Positions 4,073 through 44,941 of a stretch of 64,000 nucleotides of DNA are shown here, in pieces. The position numbers were made by a program, and so were the translations under genes. The notes under the pieces were generated by a model. That model was given only the letters and a program-made list of their open reading frames with translations. It was not told the origin of the DNA and ran no database searches. Each line of letters starts with the position of its first letter. Position 1 is the stretch's first letter. This stretch comes from Apostichopus japonicus (lineage: Eukaryota; Echinodermata; Holothuroidea; Aspidochirotida; Stichopodidae). The DNA is taken from assembly GCF_037975245.1 (NCBI RefSeq), contig NC_092568.1:4857001-4921000 (forward strand), in the 5' to 3' direction.

Positions 4073-4336
4073 CTACTGTACTGCACTATACCTCACTTCG
4101 AAAAATTTGGCTACCAAACCGAATAGGATAAAGTTGAAGATAACGCTGATGGTAAAGAGGCTAATAACGATCCAGTTATCCACTCTCTATTTACTCATTT
4201 GGTGTTGTTGACGGTGACTGTGAAGGTGCAGTAAACGTGGATGACTCCGTTAAAGGATTCCTATTATCCGATAAAGGATTCCCATTATCCGATGAGGGAT
4301 TCCCATTATCCGATGAAGGATTCCCATTATCTGTCC
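4073..4336 (-). pseudogene. Broken stalk/transmembrane exon of the Ig-receptor family
   Basis: After a splice acceptor (CAG at 4339-4337) the phase-1 frame starts Gly-Thr-Asp-Asn-Gly-Asn-Pro and contains repeats of the 7-residue unit SSDNGNP, from a 21-bp DNA repeat. It then has a Ser/Pro/Thr stalk (APSQSPSTTPN). A stop and a frameshift follow. In the shifted frame the transmembrane part resumes (DNWIVISLFTISVIFNFILF), ending at 4073. It is paralogous to the exons at 5021-5178 and 55592-55860. The break makes a functional membrane anchor unlikely. Confidence 0.65.
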
Positions 4337-4489
4337 CTGGAAATAAACAAATTATTCAATGTCAGAGCCATGTCCTGAGAAAAAAAAACACTTGATAGAA
4401 TGATCGATCGACACATGTTGGTTTCCTACTTCCTATTATGCTATATTATGAGTGACATATAACCTACTTGAAAATTTTGGAACATTTGA

Positions 4490-5460
4490 GTACAATTTTA
4501 AATGGCTAAAGTCTCCGCCGATTGAATCAAATTTGAAAGCTCTGAAGCCTCTAAGGTCTACCATATCGTATAGGGGCTCTATAGCGGGCCCCTGGACCCC
4601 AACTCAGATAGCGCGCAGCGTATTCCTTGACAGGTCAATCAATTGAATCCGCCCCACGCCCTAACATGAAATCCGGGCTACTCGACTTTCGCTGCAATAT
4701 ATCCAGTTCATATTTTAAGTTGAAGGACTATCCCTTAAACAATTTAGAGGACGGAACTCTGGAATAAACTGTTCAATTTTGGTAGAGAAAGATAACAGTA
4801 TATACCGATACCATGAATTCAAGTGTTTGGGAACGGGGCATATTGCAAAAGTACCTCAAATGACCGAACTGGTCGCGTGACAATTTGCCCTCCCCTACTC
4901 GAACTCTTTGCCCCCCCCCTGAGCCCCCCACCTGATGAAAAGTCTGGTTACGCCACTGCTGATTGTGCAGTTTTACTGTACCTTACTCCCGCCTTCTTTC
5001 CTCTTACATGCCTGGCTCCGCTAAGTATCGGCTATTAGGATAAAGCGGATGATCAGGAGGCTGATAACGATCCAATAACTACCGCACTTTCTATTAGCTT
5101 CTTTTGGTGATGTTGACGGTGACTGTGAAGGTACAGGTGACGTGAATGACTCCGATGAAGGATTCACAATATCTGTCCCTGGAAATAAATGAATTATTCA
5201 ATGTCAGAGCCATGTCTTGAGAAAACAAACACTTACCGCATTTGTAATAAAATATCTGAAACTAACATAGAACAATCGATCCGTCCGACGAGTCACCAAA
5301 CATTTCAAAGGCTGGGCCTATTACAGTTTCTATCAAACTTATGCAGAACACTGATATTTTACAACATTAAAGTTCGTGAAGGGTGCAATACTTCTAAACA
5401 TATGACTACGGCTGTTTGTGAACCACACCCTCATAGCAGTTTGTCTTTATAAAACGCTAT
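4490..5460. repeat. Segmental duplication C, left copy
   Basis: This block matches about 55180-56120 over nearly its whole length, including GGAACGGGGCATATTGCAAA and the run around GATAGCGCGCAGCGTATTC. It contains one stalk/TM exon of the Ig-receptor family. The duplication links the two ends of the window and shows that receptor pieces spread with their flanks. Confidence 0.75.
5021..5178 (-). CDS. Stalk/transmembrane exon, Ig-like receptor family (copy 1 region)
   Basis: Last-exon candidate. The acceptor CAG ends at 5179 and the phase-1 frame runs from Gly-Thr-Asp-Ile-Val-Asn-Pro through a Ser/Pro stalk (SFTSPVPSQSPSTSP) and a Cys-containing hinge to a hydrophobic segment (YWIVISLLIIRFILIADT) that ends directly at the stop. 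The phase matches the donor of the truncated Ig exon at 6880-7227, so the two could be spliced. Oddities are an Arg within the membrane segment and no cytoplasmic tail; a hydrophobic C-terminus could act as a GPI-attachment signal. Whether it is transcribed is unknown. Confidence 0.5.
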
Positions 5461-6850: not shown

Positions 6851-6879
6851 TCTACTGTCACTCAGTAAGATCATCTTAC

Positions 6880-7227
6880 CATTCAGTTGTAATGTAGCAG
6901 ACGACACGTCACTAAAGCCAGATCCCGGGAGAGTAACAAGACACATTAGACATTGCGGATACTCGATTTGGCCGCTATAGCTGGTAACTTTAACTCGGAT
7001 AGTCACAGATGAATTGCACACATCGAAGATACATGACGAGGAAGCTGATGTGTCAATGATCGTCACATGTTGGTGAAGTACTTTCCATGAGATTTCTGCT
7101 GCAGGACGGGTGTTATTGACAACACATGTCAAGATTGCGTTACCATCGTCAGCAGCAATATTACATGTTTTTTTATTTTGACATTGTTCAACGAATGATA
7201 CACTACTGTCATCCGGTGTTTTGTAAC
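6880..7227 (-). pseudogene. Truncated third-Ig-domain exon (receptor copy 1)
   Basis: The frame encodes an Ig-like domain closely matching the third domain of the 19200-23507 gene: KTPDDSSVSF, then Cys in LTCVVNN, Trp in EISWKVL, and paired Cys in CLMCLVTLPGSGF, ending LQLNG at a good donor (G|GTAAG at 6880). Similarity to the paralogues stops abruptly at about 7227, where unrelated sequence and a TA array begin, so the signal, V and second-Ig exons are gone. The donor phase (1) fits the stalk exon at 5178. Read-through past the donor meets a hydrophobic stretch before stopping at 6713. Confidence 0.7.
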
Positions 7228-7282
7228 TAAGCAACTTAATCCTAGTGGAATGTTTGTAACAAGGGACATCGAAATAAGTCGC

Positions 7283-7322: not shown

Positions 7323-7399
7323 TGTTACAAACATTCACTTGGGATGCGTCATGTGAATAAGCAACCCATAATTGTGACATTTAGTCCCTGTTTAGCATT

Positions 7400-10300
7400 T
7401 AAATTAGACTTAATTGACGAAACATTACCGGACATTGATGTATCCTATATGTGTGGTTGCAATACACAGCGAAAGAAACATTAAACATGTCTTATTTTGA
7501 GAATACTAAATCAATATAAGAGAGATTTGACACTTCGAATACGTAAAATTCGATACGGGTAAGTCCACTAAAAGAGGTCCCTCCATTGCAGTCACAAACA
7601 TGATTGCGAAGCACTATTCAAGTGTGAATAATCCTGTGCATAAAATTGAAATCAATTGTTCGGTTAGGAAAATAACAACATTTTACCGTCCTGTCCGCTC
7701 ACTGCACAACTGTGATTTAAGAACACATTACAACAAATTTTTAACACTAATTTGAATGCAAATCTCAAACGTCCATATAGTTTATGGTGCTGATAGCTCA
7801 CATTAAATGTTGAAAACATTGCCATGTCCCGATTAAAACTAATGCTTATTTAGCCCAGAAGCATTTAACACTTACAACGAAAAATTTCCGGGAATTGATG
7901 TATCCTTGTGGTTGCCATACACGGCGAAAGAAACATTAAACATATGGAATTTCGCGGATACTAAATCGTAAGAGAGAGATTGTTACACTTCGAATACGCA
8001 TAACTCGATACCGGTAAGTCTACTAAAAGAGGCCCACCCACTTTGTATTATTTCTATGCCTGTACCAACAGTTTACAACAATACGTTGGTCTTGTGTACG
8101 TAGTGCGTCGTGAGTAAACATTTACATGAACTGATAAGTAACTGAAGTGGATAACGCATAATATTCTAAATATAATCGACTTGCAGCCAGCAAACTATTT
8201 CGATGACTATTGCGAAACATATTCCCCACTAAATGTAAGTAGTCTTTGAATAAATGCCATGAATGTCTATTGCAAGTTCCAAATGAACCGTTTTAGTATT
8301 CAGACATGTTAAAATGACTCGATAGTGTTTCTTTGTCGTATTACGTTCACAATCATAGGAGAAAAATAATCTTCACTTTGTTCCCAATGATGAATTTTTC
8401 AGCGTAATTCCTCATTTTTTTCATATATTTATTGATCAATGTATCAGTTTGCTGAAAATTCTTAAATTTATGACGCTTTGATGGAAAATAATTTTCCAGG
8501 ATATGTTGAATTCCTCACATATTAGGTTCAAGCGATCTGTCATTTTGCTACAAATTGTCTGCATATGATTGAAAAATTGATCGTTTTGCTGACAATTGCT
8601 ACTCTCTTCCCCCAACAATCTTAACTTTTTGGCAGCACCTTGCTATGTTTCCTTAGCAAGGTGGAATGGGAGACAGTATCGGGAAAACACGTTTGCTTAT
8701 ATGATAGACTGTTTGTATGCATGGGTAAATTATCTCCCGTAAAATTTCTTTATCTCCTACAAATTAAGCCTGGGTAAACTATCTCGCATAAAATTCTTGA
8801 CTTATCAGAAGTCAAAAATGTACTGTCTGTCGTTGAAAGTTACAACAAATCTAATAGAAACTAGGAAGAAAATATAATTATCAATGTAAAACAAGAACAC
8901 GCGGTCACACACACACACACATTTCTATTGATCAGCAGGTAAGTCCGCCACATATCATTATGTCAATCTGTGGTACCCCCAATGAACTCAGACCAACCAC
9001 CAAGTTTCAGTTCATTACCTCAAGGGTGGTTGGTGCACTAATTCATGTGAAACGCCAAAGGTCACATGATCAAAGGTCAAATGTGTAAGAAAAGCGTTTC
9101 GCAATCTACTCCTTAAACAAAAAGCCGATGGACTTCAAACTTCATAAATATGTGACTGGGCATGGTTTGTAGAGCCTGAGTGACGTATGGAGTCATAGGG
9201 GTAAAATTTCACAGGTCAAATAACCCAACACATCATTTTTGCCATTAAACGTATGTCAAAAGAACAATGTGGCACCAACTTTCATACACAACTTGAATAT
9301 CACAGAATATATGTCTACAGTGCCTAAATTAATATATAACGCCAAATGATAAGACGAACATATATCAGTGAAAGCATTGAAAAATACGCATTCATGAACG
9401 ATAGTAAAGGTTTTCAGCTTGTTCTGCCTAATTTCTTTCACGATAATGCTAGAGAAAAGCCTCAATCACTGTGTGCAAATACGTCTGGGGTAAAGATCAC
9501 ATATTTACTTACCACTGTGTTATCTTTGACAAAGATATTGTTAGAGCAATGTCAATACCGTACACCTATATGATATTTATTTCACTGCTGCCCTTTGTTG
9601 ATCTTTGGTTTCTTGTTTAAGTACGATTCTGCAAGACTTCAAAAGTAGGGGAAATATATGAAGTATACCACGTAATAAATATTAGCATTGTGAACCAACC
9701 TTCGAGACAGAACACGTGGACAACCATGTGGGAGTTAAACACACCAAGGCACCTACATATTGATGGTACAGGAAGATGGAAGATTACAATTTCGTTGCAT
9801 TTTTTTAATAAATCCATTAGAGTACGTTGGCTGATATTCCACAAAATATCCATTTATGCCATAAACCGTACTTTAATTGAGATAATTATTTAATTATAAT
9901 ATGTGTATTTTATGTAGGACTGTATGTGTGTACAAATCTGTGTGTGATATGTGTTTGGTGTTAATTCCATGTAGCTTAAAGCGATTGTGAACGGTTCGTT
10001 GTTGCTGTAGGGTGCGATACAAATAGGTGTGTGGAAAATATCCGGCCAGTCCATACGGTGACACCGCCGTAAAGAGATGTTATCTTGATTTACCTGATCG
10101 CGTTCGGTCACTATCATTGGTTTTGACAGGTATGGAAAAGATAGGTCATACACTTCCATGATCTAAGTCAAATTGTTGCATATATATTTCTTCCTTTTTT
10201 TCGTTACAAGATGTAAGATGCTGTTTAAGGAACTAACTACCCTCATTTTGGTAACTATGCTGTTTCATTGAGACGATTGCGTCATCGTTTCGGTGTGGCT

Positions 10301-10800
10301 TGAGTCATTTGCTTCAATACAGATATGACTCATATAAATAGCTATTGAAACGAAAACAAAGATAAGGACACACAAAGAGACACAGATGCACCGCCACACT
10401 GTCAAACCTAATGTATAGGGATAACTTGTGAAAGTTGAGGCAACTTTCTACGTAGACATAATTAAGTTAATTCAACTAAAAGCTCAATTCAAGTTATTTT
10501 AATTAATTGTGACAGGTCACTATAGTTGAAATAACATGGAAGTGTCTATTCAGTAAGTTACCTTTGGTTTTCAAGTTAAATAAACTGAGCGTTCAAGTTA
10601 TAACAACAAAGCTGATTGAGTTTTATAATGTAATTATTTCTCCCTCAATATATCTACAAAAGAAACCACAACATTGTAGCTTTTCTTGAATTATATGTAC
10701 ATTGATACCCTGGCCCTTCATTAGTAATTATAACCTTCAGTCCAGATGTTGATCGACTATGCATCAACTATTTCTTCTTTGGTAATACTTAACTTGTAAT
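7400..10800. repeat. Segmental duplication block A, copy 1
   Basis: Non-coding block repeated at about 26150-30400, 39225-42350 and 46300-47760. Shared marks include the CGAAACATT..GGCATTGATGTATCC start and the TTGTGAACGGTTCGTTGTTG region. Open frames inside it are short and not conserved in frame between copies, so it is unlikely to be coding. It lies upstream (minus-strand sense) of the receptor genes and helps date insertions found in only some copies. Confidence 0.8.
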
Positions 10801-12242: not shown

Positions 12243-12245
<3 letters not shown>

Positions 12246-12545
12246 GATCCGGCTTTAGGAATCACAAATGATTTTCGAGTTGGTTAGCATCATGTTTGAT
12301 CTCTAGAGTAAGGCAAAATATGCCACCAAATAAAAAGAACTAGTATGGTTCGATACAGGTGTCAAACGCCTACAGTGAAATTACGACCTTCCCTTACCGG
12401 TTTCGAACCTCTGGACATACAATCAGCGTCCATAGTCTAGTTGGTCAAGGTCTCCGCGTACAAGGCGGAAAGCCCGGGTTCGAAACCAGGAGGAGACTGG
12501 AAGTTTTTACTGTTCTGGTTTTTCCTGGTCATTACGTTTTCAATT
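12243..12545 (+). mobile_element. tRNA-like SINE, copy I
   Basis: A module of about 300 bp bounded by TA arrays, running from AGATCCGGCTTTAGGAATCA to CATTACGTTTTCAATT. Near its 3' side a tRNA-like part begins GCGTCCATAGTCTAGTTGG (A-box-like), has the anticodon arm TCCGC-GTACAAG-GCGGA and a B box GGGTTCGAAACC. Copies lie at 23966-24150 (partial) and about 52570-52891 (minus). The loop would give anticodon ACA, unusual for a working tRNA, so a SINE is the better call. Confidence 0.7.
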
Positions 12546-12694
12546 ATATATATGTTTATATATATATATATATATATTGATAAATAGATATAGATAAATA
12601 TATATATATATCTATATCTGTATCTGTATCTATATCTATATATATATCTATATCTCTATCTCCACCCCTCTCTCCCTCTCTCTCTATATAAATA

Positions 12695-15539: not shown

Positions 15540-16331
15540 GCAAGTGGTGAAAGTGTAAATTTGATGAGGGTGCCTCGTCTGCATGAGAATGTAGATGTTG
15601 ATGCATATCTTAGAGGTTTTGAAATATTAGCAGAAACAAAACAAGTGGGATAAATCACAGTGGGCAATATTTTGTATTCCAAAATTATCTGGTAGGGCTA
15701 AGGAAGCCTATATATACCTCCAGATAACAGAGTCTCAGAATTATGATACGATAAAAGCTGCCATACTAGCCAAATACCATGTAAATGCAAAAACCTACAG
15801 AGTTAAATTTAGAACCATCACAAAAAGGATCAAACTGTGTCAGAGTGGGTTAATGACTTGAATCACCATTTAACTGGTTGGGTAACATTTTCAGATGTCG
15901 AAGAAAAGGATGTTGAAGCTGTTAAAGAACTATTAGTTGTCGAGCAGGCAATTAGTTGCATGCCTACTGATTTAGGTATCCACCTGAGAGATAGGCCAAT
16001 TAAGATTATTTTAGATCTGGCCCATGAGGCATAAAGACATATTATAAACAGAGGTGGTGATGAATTTTGGAATCAAGTATTAAAATGGGAGAGGCAAAGA
16101 TATGGAAGGGGACCACAGTTAAATGCCAATGCCACTCCATTCAAACCCAATACAGTATGTTTCAAATGTGGTAAGACAGATCACCTTAGCAAATTTTTTA
16201 GACAAGAGGTAGCATTAACAGAAGTCAGTAGGAGATGCTTTATTTTTGGCCAGACAGGCCATCTTTGTAATGCTTGTCCCCAAAGGGCCCCAAGCCAGGA
16301 CACTAGGCACAGAGATACAGATTCAAGAAGA
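15540..16331 (+). pseudogene. gag: gag remnant with zinc knuckles
   Basis: Frames broken by stops (for example after 16031) encode a helical capsid-like part (SEWVNDLNHHLTGW and DLGIHLRDRPIKIILDLAHE) followed by two knuckle-like motifs: CFKCGKTDHLSKFF, where the last Cys is lost, and CFIFGQTGHLCNAC, where the second Cys is lost. The product would package element RNA. Loss of ligand residues and several stops mark it as a pseudogene. Confidence 0.7.
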
Positions 16332-16985: not shown

Positions 16986-17039
16986 AATTTGCTTCTTTAC
17001 CAAAGATGGGTTAGCACTGAGAATTTGGCAAAGAGCCCA

Positions 17040-18170: not shown

Positions 18171-18322
18171 AAATCTCTAAATTTGTATATGTAACTGGTG
18201 TGGTACATGAAATCAGTAGTGAAAATTCAGGCATGGTGGACAGTAACAAAACAGATGAAGGTGAAGAATTTGGATGGTTGGATGATAACTTGGGTCCTTC
18301 ATTGGTCCAAACACAATCATGA

Positions 18323-18895: not shown

Positions 18896-18933
18896 TATTG
18901 TGTATAACTTCATATACTGTGCATATTGTGTAT

Positions 18934-19199: not shown

Positions 19200-19480
19200 T
19201 TAGCATTTGGTATCCCTCACTCCTTGCACACTCTTGTCTATCATTTGGGCTAAGGCATAACCTTGTTGTCCGTTTTCTCTTGTGCTTCTACAAAAGAAGA
19301 AAGCTGCAACAACTGCTATTGTGATGCTGAAAACGGACAATAGGATGCAGATGACCCAGCAATTTACACAAACTGTTGGTGACGGTGACGATGACGATGA
19401 CGGTGACGATGACGATGACGTTGACGATGACGATGACGGTGACGGTGACGGTGACGGTAGAGGGTTCCCGGTATGGTCCC
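19200..19480 (-). CDS. Exon 4, Ser/Pro stalk, membrane segment and tail (copy 2)
   Basis: Acceptor CTTTCAG, then Gly-Asp-His-Thr-Gly-Asn-Pro and a run of about 30 Ser/Pro residues made by a coding GTCACC/GTCATC-type microsatellite. Next come VCVNCWVICILLSVFSIT and a basic tail starting FFFCRSTRENGQQ, with the stop at 19200. The stalk is expected to vary in length between alleles. Confidence 0.75.
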
Positions 19481-22400
19481 CTGAAAGAAAAACAGATAGC
19501 ATCATGTTATCATGGTTTCATTTATATATTGTCCTAAGTTTCTAAACCTTGTAAGGCAGAATCCATTCCATCCATTCAGTTTGTCTAGGTCGTAGTTGTC
19601 TTTACTTTTTTCTTGTTTGCTGTAAATTAATTGTTGTACTAAAGATAACCATTTGCCAGATTTTTACTAAGATCTAAAATGCCGGAAGTTGGGAGTGTAT
19701 TTGAATCATGTCCTCTCGCTGGTTCTCATTCCTACCCAAAACAAATATGAAGAAATGCACAACAAGGAACAAAAGGAGTTTGCGACAGCTTTCACAACCC
19801 CCCCCCCCCCTCGCCTGTCCCCCTTGAAATATTCCCAGGCTGAATGCATTCGATGTAATCCAGTTCATTAAATCAGTAGTGAAGGGGTCAGAGGCGAGGG
19901 AATGGTGCAATTTTATCATAACAATAGCTGAAAAACGTGTGTAAGAAAACATTTACAATTGAGAAAACCTGAAAATTGCCGATCTCATACCATTCATCTT
20001 TAATGTAGCATACGACACATGACGAAAGTCAGATCCTGGAAGAATGACAACACATTGTAGACATTCCGGATACTCGATATCTTCTTGTTCATCGCTAATG
20101 GTAACTTGGAGTTTAACGGATGAATTGCATCTATCCAAGATACATGACGAGGAAGCTGACATATTGAAGATCGAAATATTACTGTTGAGCACTGTCCAGG
20201 AGATGTCTGCTGCAGGATGAGTGTTATTAACAACACATGTCAAGTCTACGTTTCCGTTGTCAGCAGCAATAATGCAATGGTGTTTACTTTCACAATTTTT
20301 GATGAATGATACACTACTGTCATCTGGTGTTTTGTAACGATGCAACATCATCGAGGTTCTTGTGTAAGTATGATTCACAAGACATATTGAAGTTAGTATC
20401 AGTGGGCCAGGATCATCGTATTTATCTTTCATATTAATGGTCTTGCCAATAGGTTCTGCTGTTTGAATAAACATTGTTTCGCTATCACAACTACTTTGTA
20501 GTACCTCATTATAACTAGTGTCCTCATTAATATCAATGTATTTGGTCCTGTATACATTAGCAAGATTTGTAGGTCCCATCAAAAGAACCGACGCGTTCTT
20601 CGTCCTTTCGGAAACTGATAAACCAGATGGGATACATGTCAGGGTTTGTGTTTTTTCGATATCTATCGTTACACTGATGGAAGAAGAAGTCACAAACATA
20701 TCTGAGGATGGGTCCTTGTAACTGTGTTCAGTGGCGTTTGTCACTGGCGCCTTCGCAGTATCATTGTACCAAGTAAGAGTCACTGCTGGCCGTCCACGCA
20801 TTGTACATTCCAACTTGAGTTTACCATACCAAAACAAACGGCAATCATCACCCTGGCAACCATCTATCGCGGGAAACAACTGTGTTGAAGGTACTAAAAA
20901 GAAAAGAACATTAGAACAAAGTACCTTCGGAAAGTATAAAAAGGTACCTTCGAAAGGGATTTCAGAGGTATTTGTAAACAAATCATTTAGCTGTTCAAAC
21001 ATATAATGACTTTTAGTGTTTTATTTCCAAAATGTTACAAACTGCTTCTGACATAACGTGATGCTTATACAAGGTTGACTGCCATATTTCCAAAATCAGA
21101 TATTTAAACAAGAAGAACATGTTGTCTATGGTATAACCAGGTTAGCTACTGAGTGACACAGTCTCAAACGAGAGTGTGAATGGCACCTCAATAGTCACAC
21201 TATGTATCATCAACATATATTAAGTACTTACCTACAACAAGTATGTCTATGGACGTGGATACATCGCCACCAGCGTCTAAAATAGCGTCAACACGATACC
21301 TCCCTTCATCACTCAGAGAAACGTTGCTAAATATCAGGGAACCGTTCTGAGCAATCGTCAAGTCATTGCTTCTAGGTCCGGCCTGCTTGTCATGTAGTAA
21401 CGTGACAATGGATTGTGAATCATTGTCAAAATACCAGTAGAAGCCATATACCGGCTCACTTACACTGCAGGTGATGATACCAGGTCGATGAAGCTTAAGA
21501 AACAGCGGTGAATCGCAATGGGCTTTAGGTTCTGTCTCTTCTGTAAAGTAAAAATGTGGAATATGTGATTGTAAATAAATAATATCTTTGATGGTTTGGA
21601 ATGATTCGGATTGGCAGACAAAACTACACAATTTGTAAAATCAATAAACAAAGTATACTTTTCTAGTATACAATCTCACGTTCATTATAAATATAATAAT
21701 TAAACAAAAGAATCAATGCTGCAGAAGCTTTCTGAGCAGTTTAGCCATTTGTTTGTGTGAAAAATAAAAGACACATCCGGGATAACGGTGTCATTTCCTT
21801 TCCTCCCTTTTTCCTTGTATTATGCTCCTTCTTAGCAGATATAGTTTGTTATAATGTTAGAAAGTTGTAAATATTTGCTTTGAAAAAAGACATAACGATA
21901 ATTTTTTTAATTGAATTGTGCAATGATAAAAGATTGAAATAAAGTTGAAGAGTTAAAGGGCTATAACTACTGCTAAGTTTCGATCATGAGTACTTAAAAT
22001 GCAGAGCTGCCCTTGTTATATGTTTAAACAGAATGCAATGCTGTAATGAGGTTTGATTGATGACTTCATCGCACTTGGGCATGAGCGAATGTTATCCTTG
22101 TAAGATATCATAAAAAAGTTTTGTTTATATGATATCAGCAGATACTGCTAACCCTTTGATGAATTTTGACCTTCACAATAATCAATACATTTATCATCAA
22201 AATGATACCTTCTCATGGAAGTAGGAGACTAGTCAATGTTACATTTCCTTATCTATGGTGGTCACAACATTTTTCACATTTTGAGCTAGCTGATGTAATG
22301 TTATTGAATATGCATTCAGATGTACGTATGCAAACGATGCACTACATTGTAGAATCTGCACCTGTATGTTAATGAGCTGTGTATTTGCATATTGGTATAT

Positions 22401-23507
22401 AAGTTAAAGCATGCCATCTGCTCGTCCTTGTTTCACCCTGTCTCTCCATCTGTTAACACGTAATCTGGACATGTCGTCCTACATCTGTCCTGTACAGCAT
22501 GACTATGTAACGCAATAAATGATAACATGTTAATACTCAATGTCGACTGTGTTCAACTTGATTGCTTAAAGAACTCAAGTATCTAAGCAAGGAAACATGA
22601 TAGCTGACGTCAAATGACTTTGACCTTATCTAATTTCAAGGGGTTTGTCTAACTCAGAATGGGTACCGTAACCTACATGTTTCCGTTCTTGAGAAACGGT
22701 GGGTAAAAGGTCTTCATTTTTTTTATTCTGTTGATTACACATGACTCTTGATAATATATTCCTCCTGCTTTATCTGCTTAATGTTGTGGATATCAAGTTT
22801 GACACATCTCATCAGACGCCAAGTTACATGTCCCTTCTAAGCTCCCGTACCAACCTATTCTTTCATTTCTGTGAACTAAGACTAGTGGACCAGGAGGTCC
22901 TGGGTCATTTATAGATTAGTCGGAAAGTCCGTAGAATCTACATCAATGAACTCTTATTGTTAAATGATGATGACCGAAGTATAATCATGGAAAAATCACA
23001 TCATCCTTGATACTTTCAAGTATGGAAAAGTTCTGTACAGCTTTTGTGGGACCGTTCCATTAAATTTGACACGGGGGTAGCCAAACTATGAGCTGACCAA
23101 GAGTACATCATAACTGAAATCTTTATGCAGAAGGCCCGGTTTTGGGCCCTCACATGATGGAAGTTATAAAATATGATCACATGTATAAAGAAAACCTTAA
23201 CGCACACAAACCTCTCACGAAATTTCAGCCAAAAATCAAAGCAAAATGACGAAATAGCAGTTTTTCAAACACGATGGCAAAAGTGAGAGAATTTCGGGAG
23301 ATCGCACGATGGCAATAATTCAGCTAAAAGCTTCAGCTGAGCTAAAAATGCAATCACTTTACAACGAATGACTTCGCAATCCTTTTTAAACAAACGTTAC
23401 TTGGAACACTTAAGTAAATGCTTACCTGATTTAGCTCGTAAACTCAACGTTAGTAGGACACCGATTACCAACCAGTAAATATATATATCTGAAACAATGA
23501 CGGACAT
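19200..23507 (-). CDS. Ig-like type I membrane receptor, copy 2 (apparently intact)
   Basis: Four exons: 23507-23426 (signal), 21540-21232 (V-like Ig), 20893-19991 (two Ig domains), 19480-19200 (stalk, membrane, tail). The joined frame is 1575 nt, open for 524 codons. Each intron has GT-AG ends and is in phase 1. Domain signs: V-like ITCSVSEP, FYWYF, DEGRYRV; second Ig LECTMRG, LTWYND, LTCIPSG; third Ig LTCVVNN, ISWTVL, LQCVVILPGSDF. Many N-glycosylation sites are present. After a Ser/Pro stalk comes the membrane segment CWVICILLSVFSITIAVVAA and a tail of about 30 residues without an evident ITAM or ITIM. A surface recognition or adhesion role is inferred; the exact family is not recognised. 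Confidence 0.8.
19991..20893 (-). CDS. Exon 3, second and third Ig domains (copy 2)
   Basis: 903 nt between acceptor TTTTTAG and donor AATG|GTATGAG. Two C2-like domains with canonical Cys-Trp-Cys spacing are joined by a linker of about 90 residues that has its own Cys pair (LQSSCDSE and TSICLVN), possibly a third, degenerate fold. Copy 3 has an 879-nt version lacking eight codons in the linker. Confidence 0.8.
21232..21540 (-). CDS. Exon 2, V-like Ig domain (copy 2)
   Basis: 309 nt between acceptor TTTACAG and donor GTAG|GTAAG. It encodes about 103 residues with the B-strand Cys (GIITC), core Trp (FYWYF) and the D-x-G-x-Y motif (DEGRYRV). The usual F-strand Cys two residues after Tyr is Val here and in the copies whose frame was read, and an extra Cys lies near the N-terminus (HCDSP). 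Confidence 0.8.
23426..23507 (-). CDS. Exon 1, signal peptide (copy 2)
   Basis: ATG at 23507 gives MSVIVSDIYIYWLVIGVLLT followed by LSLRAKS, a typical hydrophobic signal, ending at CAG|GTAAG (23426) after 82 nt (phase 1). The same exon is found at 38344-38424 (1 nt shorter) and 44860-44941 (intact). Confidence 0.75.
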
Positions 23508-24150: not shown

Positions 24151-24559
24151 ATGTATATATATATATATATATTTACAGACATACTTACTCATCTTCGTCT
24201 GCCTCATGATAAATGAGAGAGGATTATTTTACTTCGGTTTCTGCATGAAATGGTTTTTTCCGGCTTGTACAATTGTTAGATTTCAGTACCTTATCCTTGA
24301 CGTTGCCTTGAAGATTGTATGGCAACATAACAATGGAAAAGAGTCTCTCCAATCTTTTCAATTGATGTATCAATGTAAGAATGATACTCAGAAATCCTGC
24401 AGAACGTGGAGAGACAATTCAGTGTAATTTAAATGCTAAACAGGGACTAAATGTCACAATGATGGGTTGCTTATTATTATGACGCATTCACATGTATTCA
24501 CGTATTCACATGACGCATCCCAAGTGAATGTTTGTAACAATGGATATCAAAATAACTCG

Positions 24560-34270: not shown

Positions 34271-37200
34271 TTATGTTATTACGATGCTGAAAATGGACAA
34301 TGCGACGCAGATCGCCCAGCAATTTACACAATATGTTGGTGACGGTGAAGATAACGATGGCGGTGACGAGGAGGACGGTGACGAGGAGGACGGTGACGAG
34401 GAGGACGGAGACAGTGGCGGTGGTAGTGGCGGTGGTAGAGGCGGTGACGTTATCGAGTAGGGTAGAGGGTTCCCGTTATGGCTTCCTGACAAAAAGATAA
34501 CATGTTATCATGGCTTCATATATATAAAATCTTAGTATAGTAAACCTTGTAAGACAAAATCCATTCCATCCATGCAGTTTGTTGTCTTGTTGTCTTTACT
34601 TCTTTCTTGTTTGCTGTAAAGTTATTATATACTAATTATACTAATTATTATACTAAAAAGGAATTTGCTTGATTTGTACTAAGCTCCATAATGCCAGAAA
34701 CGGGTCAGTATTGGGACCCTCTAGACTCCCATTGCTTGACATTGCTTGAGGAAAACCAATATGAAGAAAGTCCTAACGATATTCGGCGTTAAACGTAAAT
34801 AGGAAATGAGTAAATGTAATTCAAATGTGGAGATTATTGAGGTAGGGGAAACAGGCAATTCCATTTGTTTCTTACATATTCCAAGCAGCAACGTGTATTG
34901 CAACACTTATGTTCCTTGTATTCAGCAGGAGTCAGAGGCGGAGAAATATGTGCAATGTATATAAAGTCATTTACAAGCGAGAAAGCCTGAACATTGCCAT
35001 TCCCTTACCATTCATCTTCAATGTAGCATACGACTCGTGACGAAATTCAGATCCTGGAAGAATGACAACACATTGTAGACATTCCGGATACTCGATACCT
35101 TCTTGGTCACCGCTAAAGGAAACTTGGATTGTAACGGATGAATTGCATCTATCGAAGATGCATGACGAGGAAGCTGACATATTGATGATCGAAATACTAC
35201 TGTTGAGCACTTTCCATGAGATGTCTTCTGCAGGATAAGTGTTATGAACAACACATGTCAAGTGTACGTTTCTGTTGTCAGCAGCAATAATGCAATTGTG
35301 TTTACTTTGACATTCATTAATGAATGATATACTATTGTCATCTGGTGTTTTGTAACGATGCAACATCATCGAGGTTCTTGTGTAAGTATGATTCACGAAA
35401 CATATTGAAGTTAGTATAAGTGGACCAAGTTCAATGGTATTGCCAGTAGGTTCTGATGTTTGAATAAACATCGTTCCGCTATCACAACTACTTTGTAGCT
35501 CATTATAACTAGTGTCCTCATTATTATCAATGTATTTGATCCTGTATACATTAGCAAGATTTGTAGGTCCCATCAAAAGAACCGACGCGTTCTTCGTCCT
35601 TTCGGAAACTGATAAACCAGATGGGATACATGTCAGGGTTTGTGTTTTTTCGATATCTATCTTTACATTGATTGAAGAAGAAGACACAAACATATCTGAG
35701 GATTGGTCCTTGTTAATGTGTTCAGTGGCGTTCGTCAACGCGGCCTCCGCAGTATCATTATACCAAGTAAGAGTTACTGCTGGTCGTCCAACCATTGTAC
35801 ATGTCAAATTTAGTTCACCATACCAAAACAAACGGCAATCATCACCCTGGCAACCATCTATCGCGGGAAACAACTGTGTTGAAGGTACTAAAAAGAAAAG
35901 AACATTAGAACAAGGTACCTTCGGAAAGTATAAAAAGGTCCCTTCGCAAGGGATTTCAGAGGTATTTTTGAACAAATCATTTAGCTGTTCAAACATATAA
36001 TCAGACTTTTAGTGTTTTATTTCCAACATGATACTAACTGCTTCTGACTTACGTGATGCTTATACAACGTTGACTCCCTTAGTTTCAAAATTAGATATTT
36101 AGAAAAGTAGAATATGTTGTCTTTGGTATATCCAGGTTAGCAACTGAGTGACATAGTCTCTAACGAGAGTATGAATATCACCCCAATGGTCTCACTATGT
36201 ATCATCAACATATAAGTACTTACCTACAACAAGTAGGTCTATGGACGTGGATACATCGCCACCAGCTTCTAAAATAGCGTCAACACGATACCTCCCTTCA
36301 TCACTCAGAGACACGTTGCTAAACATCAGGGAACCGTTCTGAGCAATCGTCAAGTAGTTGTTTCTAGGTCCGGCCTGCCTGTCATCTAGTGACCTGACAA
36401 CGGATTGTGGATAATCGTCAAAATACCAGTAGAAGCTGTAAACAGGTTCACTAACACTACAGTTGATGATACCAGGTCGATGTATATCAAGATACAGCGG
36501 TGAATCGCAATAGACTTTAGCTTCTGTCTTATCTGTAAAGTAAAAATGTGGAATACCGTATTGTAAATAAATGACATCTTTGATGTTTGGAATGATTCAG
36601 ATTGACAGACAAAGATACAAACAAACTAAAAAATCCATACACAAAATAAAGCAAACTTTTCTAGATAAAATCTCACGTCCATGGTAATTATGTTAATCAA
36701 TCAAGAACCTCGAAGTTATAGAAGCTCAGCTAATTTTCCACTTGAGAAATTTGTTGTGTTTGACAATCTTTCTGAGCAGTTTATCCATTTTTTGTGCGAA
36801 AAAGACATGCACGAGATAACGTTGACATTTTATTGAATTGACCAATGAAGAAAGTTTGAAATAAATTCAAAGTCAAAAGGCTGTTATTTTCGCTAAGTTG
36901 TGTTCTTGTCTACTATAAATGCACAGCTGCCTTTGTAGTATCTTTAAACCAGAATGCAAAACTGTATTGCGGTTTGATTGATGACTTCATCGTAACAGGG
37001 CATGAGCCAAAGTCATCCTTGGAAGATATTATGAAAACGTTTGTATTTATATGAATTCTACAGATAATGTTGACCCATCGAAGAATTTTAACCTTCACAA
37101 AAATCAATACATTTATTATCACAATGTTACCTTCTCGTGGAAGTAGGAGACTAGTCAATGTTGCATTTCCTTATTTATGGTGGTAACAACTTTTTCACAT

Positions 37201-38424
37201 TTGAGCTAGTTGACGTCAAATGACTTTGGCCTTAAACATTAAGGGGTTTATACAACTTAGAATGGATATCCTACATCATATCGTTCTTGGAATAAGATAA
37301 GGTAAGGTAGGTACAAGGTTTTTATTGTTTAATAGTCCTGTTGACTTCGGATGGCTCTGGACCACCAATAAAATCATAATGTCCCTATCGAATATGAACA
37401 ACCAATATGCCAAGTATAACGAATGCTAATACGGGTACACTTTTAGAGATGTGCGTGTTACAAGAAGGCAATGCACCCATACACACACACACACACACAA
37501 ATACCACAGCTCATTCACAAAGCCGAATGTATACGGCTTTACATTTACATACTTACACACGCTATCATGAGTTGATAGGTTTGGATTGTCATTGGATCTA
37601 TACTGTCACGAACTTATTTTATGCAATAGATCATTGTACTTATTGCCAGTAATAATTTATGCCCTATTTCGAAAACAAGTTCATTCATGCAACAATTAAA
37701 CGAATACGTACAAAATACGTACAAAATATCCCCTGCTACATCTGCTAAAATATTGTGGATATCATGTCTGACACATGTCATCGAAACCTCAATTTACATG
37801 TCCCTTCTACGCTTCCGTACCAACTATTCTGTCATAACTACACACTAAGGCTAGTGCAACAGGAGGTCATGGGTTACTTATAGAATAGTTGGAAAGTTCT
37901 GTTCAATTTGATTGGGACCGTTCTTTTAAATTTGACACGGTGGTGGTAAACGTATGAGCTTTCCGCCAAAGAGTACGCCCGCCATATATAACTAAATATT
38001 TATACAGAAGGCCCTGTTCTGGGCCCTCAAATGATGACAATGTTTTTGCCATGAACACCTTTGATACACCACCATTGAAACGTTATCCACAACATGTCAG
38101 CAAAAGTTCCAGAAGAGGTAGCATTTTTATGTTTTCAGAGAATAACCTCTTGTGACCTCAAATGACCTTCATATTTACAAAATATGGTGACGAAAAGTGA
38201 CAGAATTTCCGCAAAATTGCATGAAAGCTATACCTCAGCTGAGAGCAGTCAGCTGAGCTTTAGAAATGTAATCACTTCACAATTTATGACTTTGCAGTTT
38301 TTTCTTAACAAACGTTACTTGGAACAATTAAGTAAATGCTTACCTGATTTAGTTCGTAAAATCAACGCTAGTAAGACAGCGCTTACTAACCAGTAAATAT
38401 AAAGATCTGCAAGATGACAGACAT
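34271..38424 (-). pseudogene. Ig-like receptor, copy 3 (two lesions)
   Basis: Same architecture as copy 2: signal exon 38424-38344, V exon 36532-36224 (309 nt), Ig2-Ig3 exon 35887-35009 (879 nt), stalk exon 34485-34271, with the same splice sites and phase-1 joins. Two lesions are seen. The signal exon is 81 nt rather than 82, shifting the ATG out of frame with no other in-frame start. The last exon stops within the membrane segment (CWAICVALSIFSIVIT), so no tail is made. With a short hydrophobic C-terminus it might be GPI-anchored if another start is used. Pseudogene is the cautious call; a base error could explain the deletion. Confidence 0.7.
34546..34970. other. Intron 3 of receptor copy 3
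   Basis: Non-coding sequence between the stalk exon and the Ig2-Ig3 exon. It is alignable with the corresponding copy-2 intron (19481-19990) around ATCCATTCCATCCAT and TCTTGTTTGCTGTAAA. Confidence 0.6.
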
Positions 38425-38568: not shown

Positions 38569-39220
38569 TAAATATATATAATTTTAAATATGTATAGAAT
38601 AAATATATAAACCACTGAACTCCATTAAAATAATAGTATTATCGTGTTCGGTAAGAGCCTTGATATTTTCTGGATGACAATTACCTACCTTCCTCAGCCT
38701 TACCCACACAGACACACACGCAGATATACTTACCCATTTTCCGGCTTGTACGATTGTTAGACTTCAGCAACTTATCCTTGCCGTTGTCTTAAACATTGTA
38801 TGGCAAGATACAAAGTGGAAATGTGTTTCTCCAGGTTTGTCAGTTGATGTATCAAATAAAGAATGATACTTGAGAAATATACTCGATTTTCTTCCCGAAA
38901 AACAAATTTCAAAGTGTACAATTTCCTACGGCTACTTACAACACGCACAGTAGTAGTACAGGTTCAAAGGATTACTTCTTTAAATACATTCAAACAAATA
39001 CTGAGTGATCTCCAAAAGTTATTGCCAATTGTCATGGATGATACCTTATTACCTTCATAAACGTCAAGAACAAACACTAAACTCGGTTCCACCTGCTGGG
39101 TCATGTGACCCCCAGTGTCGTTAAACAAAGAGAACAAAGAGAACGAAGAACTTTTGGCGCGTCATTATTTGTTAGTTTATCGCAGTCCTGTAGAGTGCAC
39201 CTTAATTTTTGTACACAAGA
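36535..39220. repeat. Segmental duplication block B, copy 3
   Basis: Closely matches 42920-45810 and, less well, 21545-25060. Contains receptor intron 1, the signal exon, a TA array just upstream of the start codon (38480-38570), and the segment with GGTTCAAAGGATTACTTCTT. A (CA)n run lies at about 37481-37500. Confidence 0.8.
38480..38570. repeat. (TA)n array 56 nt upstream of receptor copy-3 ATG
   Basis: TA array with GATA and AATA interruptions at the promoter position of the minus-strand gene. Copy 4 has an equivalent array (44998-45087) at 55 nt. Confidence 0.85.
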
Positions 39221-40759
39221 CATTGCGTAATGTTTACAATACACAGCGAAAGAAGCATTAAACACATTTTATTTCGGCGATACTAAATCGTAAGAGAACT
39301 TTAACACTTCGAATAACTAAAACTCGATACGGGTAAGTCCAGTAAAAGAGGTCCACTTTGCATTACTTCTATGAGTGTGCCTAGTGCATTTCACCTATTA
39401 CAACAACACGTTGGTCTTGTGTAAGTAGTTCGTCGTGAGTAAACATTACAGACGCTGATAAAAAAAACTGAAGTGGATAACACACAATATTCCAAATAAA
39501 ATCAACTTGGAGCCAGCGAACTATTTCAATGGGTGTAACATACCCCCTCCCCTTTACCTAAATGTGAATAGTATATTAACATATTCCATGGTATAAATGT
39601 ATACTGCGAGTTCCAAATGAACTGTTCTAGTATTCAGACATGTTAAAAATGACTCGATGGTGTATCTTTGTCGTATAACGTCACAATCAGCCTAGAAGGA
39701 AAATAAGATTTACACTGTTGCAATGATGATTTTTTTCACCGTTATTTATAATTTTGATCAATGTATCATATTTACTGGAAATTATTAAATTGACGACGCT
39801 TTTATGAATATTCATTTTTTCAGTTTGCAGGATATGTTGAATTCCTTACTTAATAGGTTTAAGAAATTTGTCATTTTGTTACAAAATGTTTGCAAATGAT
39901 TGAAAAATTGATCGATTTGTTGGAAATTGAACTATAATATAGATTTTCAGCTTGTTCTGCCTAGTTTCATTCACGATACTGCTAGAGAAAAGCCTCAATC
40001 ACTGTCTGAAAATACGTCCGGGGTAAAGATCACATATTCACTTATCACTGTGTGATCCTTGACAAAGATATTATTAGTCAATGTAAATAGAGACCACCTG
40101 TATGTTAATTTTGATTGCACAGCTGCCCTTTGTTGATAGTTGGTTCTTGTATATGTATGATTCTGCAGAACTTTACAAGTAGGGGAAATTTAAGAAGTAT
40201 ACCAAAATAATATAATATTTGGTATTTTGAACCGATCTTCGAGACAGAACAATGTGGGAGTTGAACATATCGAGGCACCTACAAATTGATGGAACGCGGA
40301 GAAAGATTACAACTTCATTGCAAATATTTTAATAAATCCATTACAGTACGTTGGCTTATATTCCACAAAATATCCGATTATACCATAAACCGTACTTTAA
40401 TTGAGATAAGTATTTAATTATAATATGTGTATTTTATGTAGGACTGTGCCCCTGTACAAATCTGTGTGGTATTTGTTTGGTGTTAATTCCGTGTAGCTTA
40501 AAGCGGTTGTGACCGGTTCGCTGTTGCTGTAGAGGTGCGATTCAAATAGGTGTGTACCAGTCCATACGTATCACCGCAGTAAAGAGATGTTAACTTGATT
40601 TCCCTTGTCACGTTCAGTCACTAACTTTAGTTGTAATAATGATGGATGTAAGTTAAGATATATTTCTTCCTTTTTGTCGTGATAAGATGTAAAGCGCTGC
40701 TTAAAGAACCAACTTCCCTCACTTTGATAACTCTGCCGTTTCATTCAGACGATTGCGTC

Positions 40760-41072
40760 TATAGCGGGCCATCAGTCTCAAATCAAGGGAGAGCGACTTA
40801 TACCGATTTAAATCGACATATACCAGTTTCCTTCGAATTATACTAGTTTCTAGCAGCTTAACTTGAATTCTACCGATTTAAATCGACATATACCAGTTTA
40901 ATTCTACATATCATCGATTTAAATCGACATATCATCGATTTAAATCGACATATACCAATTTAAATCGATGATAAGTAAAATAAACTGGTATAAGTCGAAG
41001 GAAATTGGTATATATCGATTTAAATCGGTACAAGTCGATCTCCCACGATTTGAGACTGATGGCCCGCCCATA
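40760..41072. mobile_element. MITE, 313 bp, with long inverted termini
   Basis: Termini start TATAGCGGGCCATCAGTCTC (left) and TATGGGCGGGCCATCAGTCT (right, reverse complement); similarity continues inward for about 50 bp (AAATC..GGGAGA..CGACTT). The interior repeats ATCGATTTAAATCGACATAT. Flanking TGCGTC is duplicated (40754-40759 and 41073-41078), and block-A copy 1 has the empty site around 10274-10285. Open frames inside are incidental. Confidence 0.85.
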
Positions 41073-42002
41073 TGCGTCATCGTTTCGGTGCACAATAAGT
41101 TGAGCGATTTGCTTAAGAAGCATATATGACTCATAATAATAATTATTGAAACGAAAATAAGATAAGAACACAAGGAGACACAGATACACAGCCACACTGT
41201 AGAAACCCAACGTATTGGGATAATTTGTAAAAGTTGAGGCAACTTTCTGCATAGACATTGTTATGTTCATTCAACTAAGCTCATTTCAAGTTATTTCAAT
41301 TAATTTTGACCGGTGACTAATTGAAATAACACAGAAGTGTATATTCAGCAAGAAACCTTTTTTTTTCAAGTTAAATCAACTGAGCGTTTAAGTTATAACA
41401 ACAAAGCTGTTTGAGGTTTATAATATAATTATTTTCTCCCTCAATATATTGACAAAAGGGACCTCAACATTTCTAAAACACAACAAAACAGTAATGTGTT
41501 AAACGTGTAGCACTTCAAAGCAAAAATGCTAAAACCTGTTTACATTTTCCTTTGAAATATTTACACCATCTTCCACCATCAGTTTCGACAAATGTATTAT
41601 TGTATCCCAGTAAAGGGTTCACACTTTGTAGTAGACTTACCACTACAGACATTTTAGATGATTAGGCAAAAGTTTTGTGAAAGACCAAGACACCATATCG
41701 TAAAAGATCATCAGTATTGTCCCCTAATTGAATTAAATTAATTTCTAAATGTAGTTTCCTACATAATAACTATGTCTACCCCAACAGACCCTACATCTGC
41801 GTCTGGTCCAAACCTCACTTATTTGGCGGCAGCAGAGCCAATGTTAAAGTTTTCAAATTACCATAGACTAATATACATAACCAACCTTCAAACACTGTAG
41901 CTCTGTCTGAATAATGTTCACATTGATACCTTGGCACTTAATTAGTAACTCTAACATTCTGTCCAGATGTTGGTCAACTATTTATTAAGTATTTGCTTTC
42001 AT

Positions 42003-42165
42003 AATACTGGTGCTGTTGCCGAGTTGATGAAGGCGGTGGCATTTGAAGCAATCGGGAGGTTCCAGGTTAGATACCCTGCCGAGCCATAGTCAGGTGGGAT
42101 TTTCATCGAAGAGTAATCTACGGTTTTCCCTTCTGAAATGATTTTCTAAATTGAAAAGATTCCAA
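42003..42165 (+). mobile_element. tRNA-Ser-derived SINE
   Basis: Starts GGTGCTGTTGCCGAGTTGAT (A-box region), has a serine-type anticodon loop TTTGAAG (anticodon TGA), a long variable-arm-like segment and B box CCAGGTTAGATACCCTG. The body AGTAATCTACGGTTTTCCC follows. The unit is absent from block-A copy 1 at the equivalent place, supporting insertion in copy 3. Confidence 0.65.
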
Positions 42166-42541
42166 ATTTGAGTTAAAATGTTGAATTGGAAGGCCACCCG
42201 ACGTGTACGTTGTAATCCATAAGCCCTGCTGGTTTCTCCCACATTTGTGGTCGCTTAAGCGTCGTAAAAGTAACTGCTGATTATTAATATCATAATATTA
42301 ATTTGTAATTATACCAAAGGGTTGCTTTTCGCTTCATTCGATCTTTGACCTCTGACCTCTAAATCTGAAAGCTTGCAAGGCACTCGTGCCTATCCAAGGC
42401 ACTTAAGTTCTGTGACACGAAGGTCTGGGTTTCAATTTCTACCTTTGCATGCTGAGTCCCAAAAGGACGAGACTGGTTGTGGGTTTTTTTCTGGTGTGTT
42501 GATCTTTAATAATTCATTATTTGTATCTGTCATTCTACTTT

Positions 42542-44941
42542 TTACAATTTCATTTTATAATTACGGCTTAGCTTGCCTCTTAAAGTGTTCATTCTGTGCA
42601 CATTGTCATACTCAACGACAAGTACGTCTATGGACGTGGATACATAGCCACCAGCTTCTAAAATAGCGTCAACACGATACCTCCCTTCATCACTCAGAGA
42701 CACGTTGCTAAATATCAGGGAACCGTTCTGAGCAATCTTCAAGTAGTTGTTTCTAGGTCCGGCCTGCCTGTCATCTAGTAACGTGACAACGGATTGTGGA
42801 TAATCGTCAAAATACCAGTAAAAGCCATATACAGGCTCACTTACACTACAGTTGATGATACCAGGTCGATGAATATCAAGATACAGCGGTGAATCGCAAT
42901 ATACTTTAGGTTCTGTCTTATCTGTAAAGTAAAAATGTGGAATATCGTATTGTAAATAAATGACATCTTTGATGTTTGGAATGATTCAGATTGACAGACA
43001 AAGGTACAAACAAAATAAAAAATCCATAAACAAAATAACGCAAACTTTTCTAGATTAAATCTCACGTTCATGGTAATTACATTAATCAATCAAGAACATC
43101 GAAGTTATAGAAGCTCAGCTAATTTTCCACTTGAGAAATTTGTTTTGTTTGACAATCTTTCTGAGAGTTTATCCATTTGTTTGTGCGAAAAAGACATGCA
43201 CGAGATTACGTTGTCATTTTATTGAATTGACCAATGAAGAAAGTTTGAAATAAATTCAAAGTCAAAAGGCTGTTATTATCGCTAAGTTTTGTTCTTGTCT
43301 ACCATAAATGCAGAGCTGTCTTTGTAGTATCTTTAAACCAGAAGACAAAACTGTATTGCGGTTTGATGGATGACTTCATCGTAACAGGGTATGAGCCAAT
43401 GTCATCCTTGGAAGATATCATGAAAACGTGTGTATTTATATGAGTTCTACAGATACTGTTGACCGTCAGAAGAATTTTAACCTTCACAAAAATCAATACA
43501 TTTATTATCACAATGTCACCTTCTCGTGGAAGTAGGAGACTAGTCAATGTTATATTTCCTTAGTTATGGTGGTTACAACTTTTTCACATTTGAGCTAGTT
43601 GACGTCAAATGAGTTTGGCCTTAAACATGAAGGGGTTTATACAACTTAGAATGGGTAACCTACATCATATCGCACTTGAGATAAGATAAGGTAAGGTAGG
43701 TACAAGGTTTTATTGTTTGATAGTCCTGTTGACTTCGGATGGCTCTGGACCACCAATTAAATCATAAGGTCCCTATCTAATATGGGCAACCAACATGCCA
43801 AGTATAACGGATGCTAATTCGGGTACTCTTTTAGAAATGTGGGTGTTACAAGAATGCAATGCACCCATACACACACACGCACACACACACACACAAATAC
43901 CATAGTTCATTCACAAAGCCGAATGTATACGGCTCTACATATACATACTTACACACGCTATCATGAGTTGATAGGTTTGGATTGTCATTGGATCTATACT
44001 GTCACGAACTTATTTTATGCAATAGATCATTGTACTTATTATTAGTTTATTACCAGTAATAAACTATTCCCTATTGCAAAAACAAGTAACCAAAGTATGT
44101 ACACTTTGCAGTTTCATTCAAATAATTGAACGAATACGTACAAAATATTCCCCTGCTACATCTGCTAAAATATTGTGGATACCGCGTTTGACACATGTCA
44201 TTGAAACGTCAATTTACATGTCCCTTCTAAGCTTCCGTACCAACTATTCTGTCATAACTACACACTAAGGCTAGTGCAACAGGCGGTCATGGGTTACTTA
44301 TAGAATAGTTGGAAAGTCTGTAGAAACTACATCAATCAGCCCTTATTGTTAAATGTCGGTGTCCGAAGTGTAATCATGGACCAACCTCATCATGCTTGAT
44401 ACTTTCAGGTAAGGAAAAGTTCTGTTCAATTTGATTGGGACCGTTCTTTTAAATTTGACACGGTGGTGGTAAACGTATGAGCTTTCCAAAAAGTACGCCC
44501 GCCATACCTAAATCTTTATACAGAAGGCCCTGTTCTGGGCCCTCAAATGATGACAATGTTTTTGCCGTGAAAAACTTTGGTTCACCACCATTGAAACGTT
44601 ATCCATAACATGTCAGCAAAAGTTCCAGAAGAGGTAGCATTTTTATGTTTCCAGAGAATAACCTCTTGTGACCTCAAATGACCTTCATATTTACAAAATA
44701 TGGTGACGAAAAGTGACAGAATTTCGGCAAAATTGCATGAAAGCTATACCTCAGCTGAAAGCAGTCAGCTGAGCTATAGAAATGTAATCACTTTACAACT
44801 AATGACTTTGCAATTTTTTCTTAACAAACGTTACTTGGAACAATTAAGTAAATGCTTACCTGATTTTGCTTGTAAAATCAAAGCTAGTAGGACACCGATT
44901 ACTAACCAGTAAATATCAATATCTGAAGAAAGGACAGACAT
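42542..44941 (-). CDS. Ig-like protein, copy 4: signal plus single V domain, possibly secreted
   Basis: Signal exon 44941-44860 (82 nt, intact: MSVLSSDIDIYWLVIGVLLA then LILQAKS) and V exon starting at acceptor 42921. The V-exon donor is removed by a breakpoint at about 42616/42617, and the frame continues into block-A sequence, stopping at 42542. Joined coding length is 462 nt, an open 153-residue frame: signal, V-like Ig (GIINC, FYWYF, DEGRYRV) and a novel tail of about 23 residues (VEYDNVHRMNTLRGKLSRNY). Exons for Ig2, Ig3 and the membrane anchor are absent, so a soluble product is predicted if transcribed and polyadenylated. A pseudogene is equally possible. Confidence 0.6.

Follow-up and report, generated by a model that had tools for sequence, protein, structure and literature searches.

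Do neighbouring immunoglobulin (Ig) genes that differ in how their products would be anchored form a working set of receptor versions, and what might such receptors do? The question is raised by a stretch of 64,000 nucleotides from the sea cucumber Apostichopus japonicus (contig NC_092568.1, here C8, at C8:4857001-4921000; hereafter the window), in which a first-pass annotation had described four copies of one Ig-like receptor and proposed membrane-bound, possibly glycosylphosphatidylinositol (GPI)-linked and secreted versions of a single ectodomain. We think that the window is probably part of a tandem array of single-pass receptors, short-tailed relatives of the AjNLRC4-type receptors that lack a NACHT domain, with a presumed role in recognition. 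From sequence comparisons within one assembly of the species (671.6 Mb, 35 contigs) we establish the exon anatomy and copy number of these genes, their related V and C2 modules, the place of the AjNLRC4 locus in the same family, the mosaicism of V exons and, in one subfamily, a V domain with an excess of amino-acid changes. For the anchoring differences among the window copies, damage is a better explanation than design: they come from a deletion, a breakpoint of duplication and decay.

The Ig genes of the window lie on the minus strand and are arranged as tandem duplicated blocks, and since these blocks are about 70-92% identical in DNA the tandem duplication is real. Matches to V-set and C2-set_2 in Pfam, together with the reading of splice sites, confirm the positions at which the first-pass annotation had placed Ig exons, and its modular design with all exons in phase 1 holds as well. 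Such phase-1 exons are ordinary for Ig genes. Our model has five exons: a leader with the ATG and one further nucleotide, a signal exon of 63 nt, a V exon of 309 nt, a double C2 exon (C2-C2) of 903 nt and an exon for stalk, transmembrane segment (TM, called by eye) and tail. The junctions read are in phase 1 with canonical acceptors and donors, and identical borders recur in copies beyond the window; splice-consistent models in phase 1 hold for copies 2 and 3 and for genes A and B, and for copy 4 as far as the V exon. The start exon ends in ATGA or ATGG directly before gtaagt in copies 2, 3 and 4 and likewise beyond the window in genes A and B, of which B has two candidate exons of this kind. 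Because the exon upstream ends in ATG plus one nucleotide in copies 2-4, the true protein start of these copies likely lies one exon 5' of the signal exon. Four copies of one design had been proposed; the homologous tandem blocks are there, but as judged from its exons copy 2 is the only complete signal-V-[C2-C2]-stalk/TM-tail gene in the window:

24189..24395, minus strand: copy 2 exon 1, 5' leader ending ATGA before gtaagt, ATG at 24192-24190 (by homology with copies 3 and 4; upstream end approximate)
23426..23488, minus strand: copy 2 signal-peptide exon, 63 nt, phase 1-1 (splice sites)
21232..21540, minus strand: copy 2 V exon, 309 nt, cysteines in the A and B strands and none in F (alignment, Pfam)
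19991..20893, minus strand: copy 2 double C2-type Ig exon, 903 nt (C2-set_2 above cut-off; borders)
19200..19480, minus strand: copy 2 stalk/TM/tail exon with stop TAA (frame and splice reading)

The V-set match of this V exon (26.2 bits) barely exceeds the Pfam cut-off of 26 bits, and the matches in the V exons of copy 3 (24.7) and copy 4 (23.2) fall just below it. CD80-like C2-set_2 exceeds its cut-off of 21 bits in both full double-Ig exons (37.6 and 35.8 bits).

A V-domain family that includes the AjNLRC4 locus

The V domain of these genes is non-canonical. In 10 of 10 C8 V exons aligned (14 C8 places were matched) cysteines are found in the A and B strands and none in the F strand, and we infer a disulfide between A and B. 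Genome searches with a V query from C8 and one from the 46-Mb contig C16 gave 124 matches among 150 scored of 307 candidates and 150 among 150 scored of 378, respectively, so that all counts are lower bounds; combined they amount to at least 198 distinct V places. The 48 places obtained with the C8 query alone have E-values up to 0.001 and include one fragment. At least 117 places are located on C16, where they span 0.31-45.84 Mb and occupy 19 of 23 two-megabase bins, with 38 of the 117 in the bin at 4-6 Mb. The same cysteine pattern was present in 20 of 20 V exons sampled among the 150 matches of the C16 query (14 taken at about every seventh row, six picked for other contigs and lower ranks), and two of them, L053 and L054, have an extra cysteine. 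Altogether 24 V exons were read outside C8: 23 show the A/B pattern, none has an F-strand cysteine, and the V exon of L034 on C12 is without the A-strand cysteine.

AjNLRC4 of A. japonicus has been described with an Ig-like domain at 31-132, an Ig domain at 251-353, a TM at 483-503, a NACHT domain at 600-757 and a second TM at 776-795 (PMC8699970). Its ectodomain binds bacteria, lipopolysaccharide, peptidoglycan and mannan, it mediates phagocytosis of Vibrio, and it was presented as unique in combining Ig with NACHT (PMC8699970). Ig-NACHT receptors are already known in A. japonicus (PMC8699970, PMC13133943), some NLRs of Chiridota heheva have been noted to carry an Ig V-set domain (PMC8913654), and PMC13228809 cites an expansion, in A. 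japonicus, of CARD-containing genes of the NLR family. By matching the published primers we show that AjNLRC4 lies at C16:4.497 Mb, within the present V family: primer EX-F has a single genome match at two mismatches or fewer (with one mismatch) in the V exon at C16:4497304, and qF and qR match exactly in the exon next to it, which also encodes LRTD, a caspase-1 site (PMC11932488). The V exon of this locus again has cysteines in the A and B strands and none in F. Under the echinoderm/flatworm code the mitochondrial COX1 is an uninterrupted frame.

The first C16 gene that we read (L037 and L063) has the order V-[C2-V]-C2-TM-NACHT on a single strand, with exons that can be joined in phase 1 through the TM. 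Its V domains are named by Pfam, its C2 domains by eye and by likeness to L034, where C2-set_2 passes the Pfam cut-off, and its NACHT domain scores 45.9 bits (cut-off 26.7). A second C16 region (L064) has the identical order, its NACHT being taken from the genome search for this domain. In that search 82 of 538 candidates were scored and all 82 matched, again a lower bound; 45 of them are on C16 and 29 on C7. A V exon is located within 20 kb 5' of 21 of the 82 scored NACHT exons and within 20 kb 3' of none, and no V place lies within 30 kb of the 29 NACHT exons on C7, among the V matches listed.

None of these 82 scored places is on C8. A tblastn search for NACHT over 164 kb around the window, 5 kb of which are N, gave E 5.9 as its best value, and the C8 genes read terminate after a short tail without NACHT in their exon models. 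Since no NACHT was found for the window genes, they fail the defining feature of the AjNLRC4 type and we class them as NACHT-less relatives. When the C2-C2 exon was compared with four exons of relatives by phmmer, E-values of 3.4e-10 (L034) and 8e-5 (the C2-V exon of L037) were obtained. The recognition role suggested by the first-pass annotation is likely by way of the relation to the bacteria-binding AjNLRC4. That the window copies as such make up a working repertoire is not supported.

Exchange, selection and damage on C8

A genome-wide count, proposed earlier as a check, agrees with a family that reaches beyond the window. In addition to the V places counted above, the C2-C2 exon has 16 genome matches, 15 of them on C8, which represent 13 loci in three groups at 3.44-3.52, 4.69-4.77 and 4.80-4.93 Mb. 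Nine loci are open and full length, two have a stop, one is split and one is a fragment; because of the nine, the C8 family beyond the window looks alive. It comprises two subtypes with a common V and C2-C2 core, dissimilar 5' sequence and signal exons and weakly similar TM exons. Splice sites and full TM are intact in genes A and B and in copy 2, and the F-type gene L026 retains TM and tail (read in L042).

Exons were thought to be swappable between copies, and gene A supports this. Its upstream part and the start of its V exon are B-like, the remainder of V and the intron that follows are F-like (59 F-like against 12 B-like sites in the intron), and afterwards the gene is B-like again (72 B-like against three F-like sites over the final third of the C2-C2 exon). 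In sequence it is clearly a mosaic by V-exon exchange, with a V exon and following intron from another subfamily.

Diversifying selection was another of the proposed checks. With 54 of 55 pairs used for each domain, the pairwise dN/dS has a median of 0.29 for V (range 0.06-2.08, five pairs above 1) and of 0.68 for C2-C2 (range 0.37-0.92, no pair above 1). The five V pairs above 1 (1.1-2.1) are all among F, L024, L026 and L027, of which L024 and L027 are identical in V. Between the V exons of L024 and L026 we counted 41 non-synonymous and six synonymous changes, and 21 of 33 columns differ in the segment from strand B to D against 12 of 63 elsewhere. For this pair, which was picked post hoc, the descriptive p values are 4e-5 against introns and 3e-5 for clustering, and the comparison of non-synonymous with synonymous changes is not significant by itself (p 0.12).

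Several observations weigh against reading the C8 genes as recognition receptors related to AjNLRC4. The V domains of C8 and C16 are only about 32% identical (best C16 match). The acceptors read next to the NACHT frame of the first C16 gene are in a phase other than 1, and joining TM to NACHT would therefore take a further exon or acceptor. A 19-mer of the AjNLRC4 siRNA has no exact match genome-wide, and neither this 19-mer nor the primers EX-R, IN-F and IN-R were found in the 3-kb locus L065, which covers part of the gene only. The C8 tails are short and have no signalling domain in the exon models read, with a motif like the immunoreceptor tyrosine-based inhibitory motif (ITIM) in two of five (SDYDSL in A and VQYSKI in L026; none in B, copy 2 and F). 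The dN/dS range of C2-C2 is equally compatible with relaxed constraint, and of the four window copies two are fragmentary and a third is without part of its TM. AlphaFold2 run on window-only alignments gave poor models (pLDDT 50 and 45) and Foldseek with the V model gave no match under E 0.14, so that the folds support no claim.

It might be possible that these genes encode adhesion or self/allo-recognition molecules, whose V domains would pair with themselves or with a partner V on another cell as in nectins, CD2 or CEACAM, the ligand not being microbes. We regard this as rather unlikely, but the V profile does point in this direction. Against the PDB it matched 127 chains at E ≤0.1, headed by otk (2e-9, partial) and contactin-1 (4.4e-8), then CEACAM1 (1.5e-7, 5vst). 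Among the best 60 of these 127 chains, which were inspected, 23 belong to the CEACAM family (two of them named biliary glycoprotein) and five are named CD2 (best 1cdb, E 1.6e-4); RAGE, T-cell receptor and neural adhesion chains were matched as well. The V exon of copy 2 by itself again has otk as best match (E 4.4e-5), and the C2-C2 exon has weak matches only (E 0.024 or worse). The first domains of CEACAM and CD2 are likewise without the canonical disulfide, and tails without a signalling domain would suit adhesion molecules. However, AjNLRC4, the closest studied receptor with this type of V, binds microbes and drives phagocytosis (PMC8699970), and the likeness to the vertebrate families is one of domains, not of orthology.

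A decaying side branch, in which the C8 genes have been weakly constrained since they parted from the NACHT-bearing family and are now being lost, would account for the state of the remaining window copies:

38734..38878, minus strand: copy 3 exon 1, ending ATGG before gtaagt (by homology; upstream end approximate)
38344..38406, minus strand: copy 3 signal exon (splice reading)
36224..36532, minus strand: copy 3 V exon (splice reading, alignment)
35009..35887, minus strand: copy 3 double C2-type Ig exon (C2-set_2, borders)
34271..34485, minus strand: copy 3 stalk/TM exon, frame stops early inside the TM (small deletion relative to paralogues)
44860..44922, minus strand: copy 4 signal exon; its exon 1 ends ATGA at 45298-45295 (splice reading)
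42542..42921, minus strand: copy 4 V exon, donor lost, frame running on to a stop (aligns with the other copies as far as 42615)
6881..7246, minus strand: copy 1, fragment of the third Ig only, 59% identical to copy 2 (sequence comparison)
4952..5182, minus strand: copy 1 stalk/TM exon with internal stops (frame reading)
4109..4393, minus strand: copy 1 second stalk/TM exon, stop ahead of the TM (frame reading)
55592..55860, minus strand: intact stalk/TM exon, most probably of gene F (V and C2-C2 exons at C8:4925333-4926979)

Copies 1 and 4 are fragments and the TM of copy 3 is broken, two more C2-C2 exons have a stop and one is split, and dN/dS in C2-C2 reaches 0.92. Nevertheless decay of the branch as a whole is improbable, given nine open, full-length C2-C2 loci out of 13, the low median dN/dS of V, the intact splice sites and TM of A, B and copy 2, and the TM and tail kept in L026. 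Neutral frames in an entirely decayed set of copies had been named in advance as a refuting outcome; among the pairs used, most have dN/dS below 1. The exon at 55592-55860, supposed to be a loose one, most probably belongs to a fifth gene, F, whose V and C2-C2 exons lie about 12.5 kb upstream, to the right of the window.

In detail, the damage also decides how the proposed anchoring variants are to be seen. The TM of copy 3 is indeed cut short: a small deletion, seen on comparison with A, B and copy 2, ends its frame early at 34271-34273, so that half of the TM is lost while the other exons are kept. The V frame of copy 4 does run to a stop as expected of a soluble single-Ig form, but at 42615/42616, the 3' limit of the V exon and the point at which the adjoining duplicated block starts, homology and donor are both gone, and from this alignment the end of copy 4 is a duplication breakpoint. 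Copy 1 consists of remnants, and its supposed alternative stalk/TM exons both have early stops and stand beside a third-Ig fragment. A deliberate repertoire of membrane, GPI-linked and secreted forms from different copies is very improbable: copy 3 ends hydrophobic and tailless, the general shape of a GPI signal and the only basis for a GPI form, and copy 4 could encode a secreted single-V protein, but the sequence beyond the stop of copy 3 still aligns to coding sequence of its paralogues, copy 4 terminates at the breakpoint and copy 1 is without V and first C2.

We return to the reading of the C8 genes as NACHT-less relatives of AjNLRC4. Such receptors would sit on coelomocytes, and the face of their V domain would bind microbial or cellular ligands; the short-tailed C8 members might work alongside the NACHT-bearing receptors, as their partners, co-receptors or decoys. 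Through unequal crossing-over and conversion among copies both copy number and sequence would change, and dead copies such as 1 and 4 would be left behind. A wider picture, which we put forward only tentatively, is that C16 might be largely a receptor chromosome with more than 100 Ig ectodomains of one non-canonical V type, many of them joined to TM and NACHT, and that C8 might hold germline-diversifying partners or decoys without NACHT, with V exons exchanged between subfamilies and the C-C'-C'' region, which likely faces the ligand, changing fastest.

Other sequences in the window and the genome

RAG-type rearrangement of V exons was also considered and was rejected, since recombination signals of the vertebrate-type consensus are not in excess within the window at three mismatches or fewer (12-spacer: one match against 0.68 expected; 23-spacer: none against 0.79). 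A different V-set gene was seen at C21:5186500-5190500 (L038), where one open frame of 559 amino acids, perhaps intronless by its sequence, holds V and further Ig domains and a TM-like hydrophobic stretch. More V-set matches in long frames occur on C21, C13, C15 and C18.

A second duplicated sequence accompanies the Ig genes in their blocks (7417-10789, 26157-30688, 39231-42451 and 46039-48676), and the open frame 25565-26224 adjoining it has no Pfam match. An element of long-terminal-repeat type is found at 16035-18907 on the plus strand; it has several frames in the order CCHC, integrase, reverse transcriptase, with most Pfam matches below the cut-off, an order which we take to be that of Gmr1-like Ty3/gypsy elements. 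The open frame at 62384-63016 on the minus strand encodes a GIY-YIG nuclease domain (27.7 bits, cut-off 22.6) and is perhaps from a Penelope-like element. A U2 snRNA-like sequence at 3490-3580 on the minus strand (53.1 bits, gathering threshold 46) is bounded by a direct repeat of 110 bp (3382-3491 and 3583-3691). Two tRNA-Cys calls were made, at 12434-12499 on the plus strand and at 52631-52703 on the minus strand, of which Rfam detects the second only; as both are inside an 85%-identical inverted pair (12245-12659 and 52463-52879), they are probably a tRNA-derived repeat.

Significance and comparison with known systems

Echinoderms, to our knowledge, do not rearrange lymphocyte antigen receptors. 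If the wider picture given above is true, they would have in A. japonicus an Ig repertoire for recognition that is encoded in the germline, involves no rearrangement and is directly coupled to a domain of inflammasome type. AjNLRC4 becomes one member of the large V family, and the C8 branch has the same type of outer domain with no NACHT found. How echinoderms build Ig-based recognition diversity can thereby be tested through ligands, through decoy or partner roles and through V-exon swaps between individuals. As far as our searches show, three things are new: the common non-canonical V type, its spread along a whole chromosome, and on C8 a branch without NACHT whose exons are exchanged; no description of a chromosome-wide Ig-V family in sea cucumbers was found in the literature searched, most subscription journals being outside it. 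A 2026 review of immune diversification lists Toll-like, NOD-like and scavenger receptors, complement, lectins and SpTransformer for echinoderms (PMC13428168), and its echinoderm part, in the text available, names no Ig family.

Amphioxus VCBP and snail FREP proteins are diversified Ig-type recognition proteins of invertebrates, as are those proposed here; the complete copy 2 is without the chitin-binding domain of VCBP or the fibrinogen domain of FREP, Pfam giving only Ig domains in its Ig exons save one sub-threshold SGL match. The Alr cluster of Hydractinia is, like that of the window, a tandem invertebrate Ig-superfamily cluster of TM receptors with unusual V-like domains. Its domain order differs from that of the window genes, and its defining trait is extreme allelic polymorphism tied to fusion. 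CEACAM and CD2/SLAM receptors have a V-like first domain without the disulfide between B and F, a feature shared by the C8 V exons, followed by C2 domains and a single TM, and are encoded in gene clusters. The C8 genes differ from them in the extra A-strand cysteine, in their echinoderm host and in having an ITIM-like motif in only two of five tails read, and the likeness is again one of domains. AjNLRC4 itself differs in its intracellular NACHT domain (PMC8699970) and in a C2-V exon after V. In the window genes V is followed by a C2-C2 exon and the tail is short, and the search of the surrounding 164 kb gave no NACHT. Nevertheless the two are alike in the type of V domain (cysteines in A and B, none in F), in a C2-type domain and in a TM, and they belong to the same genome.

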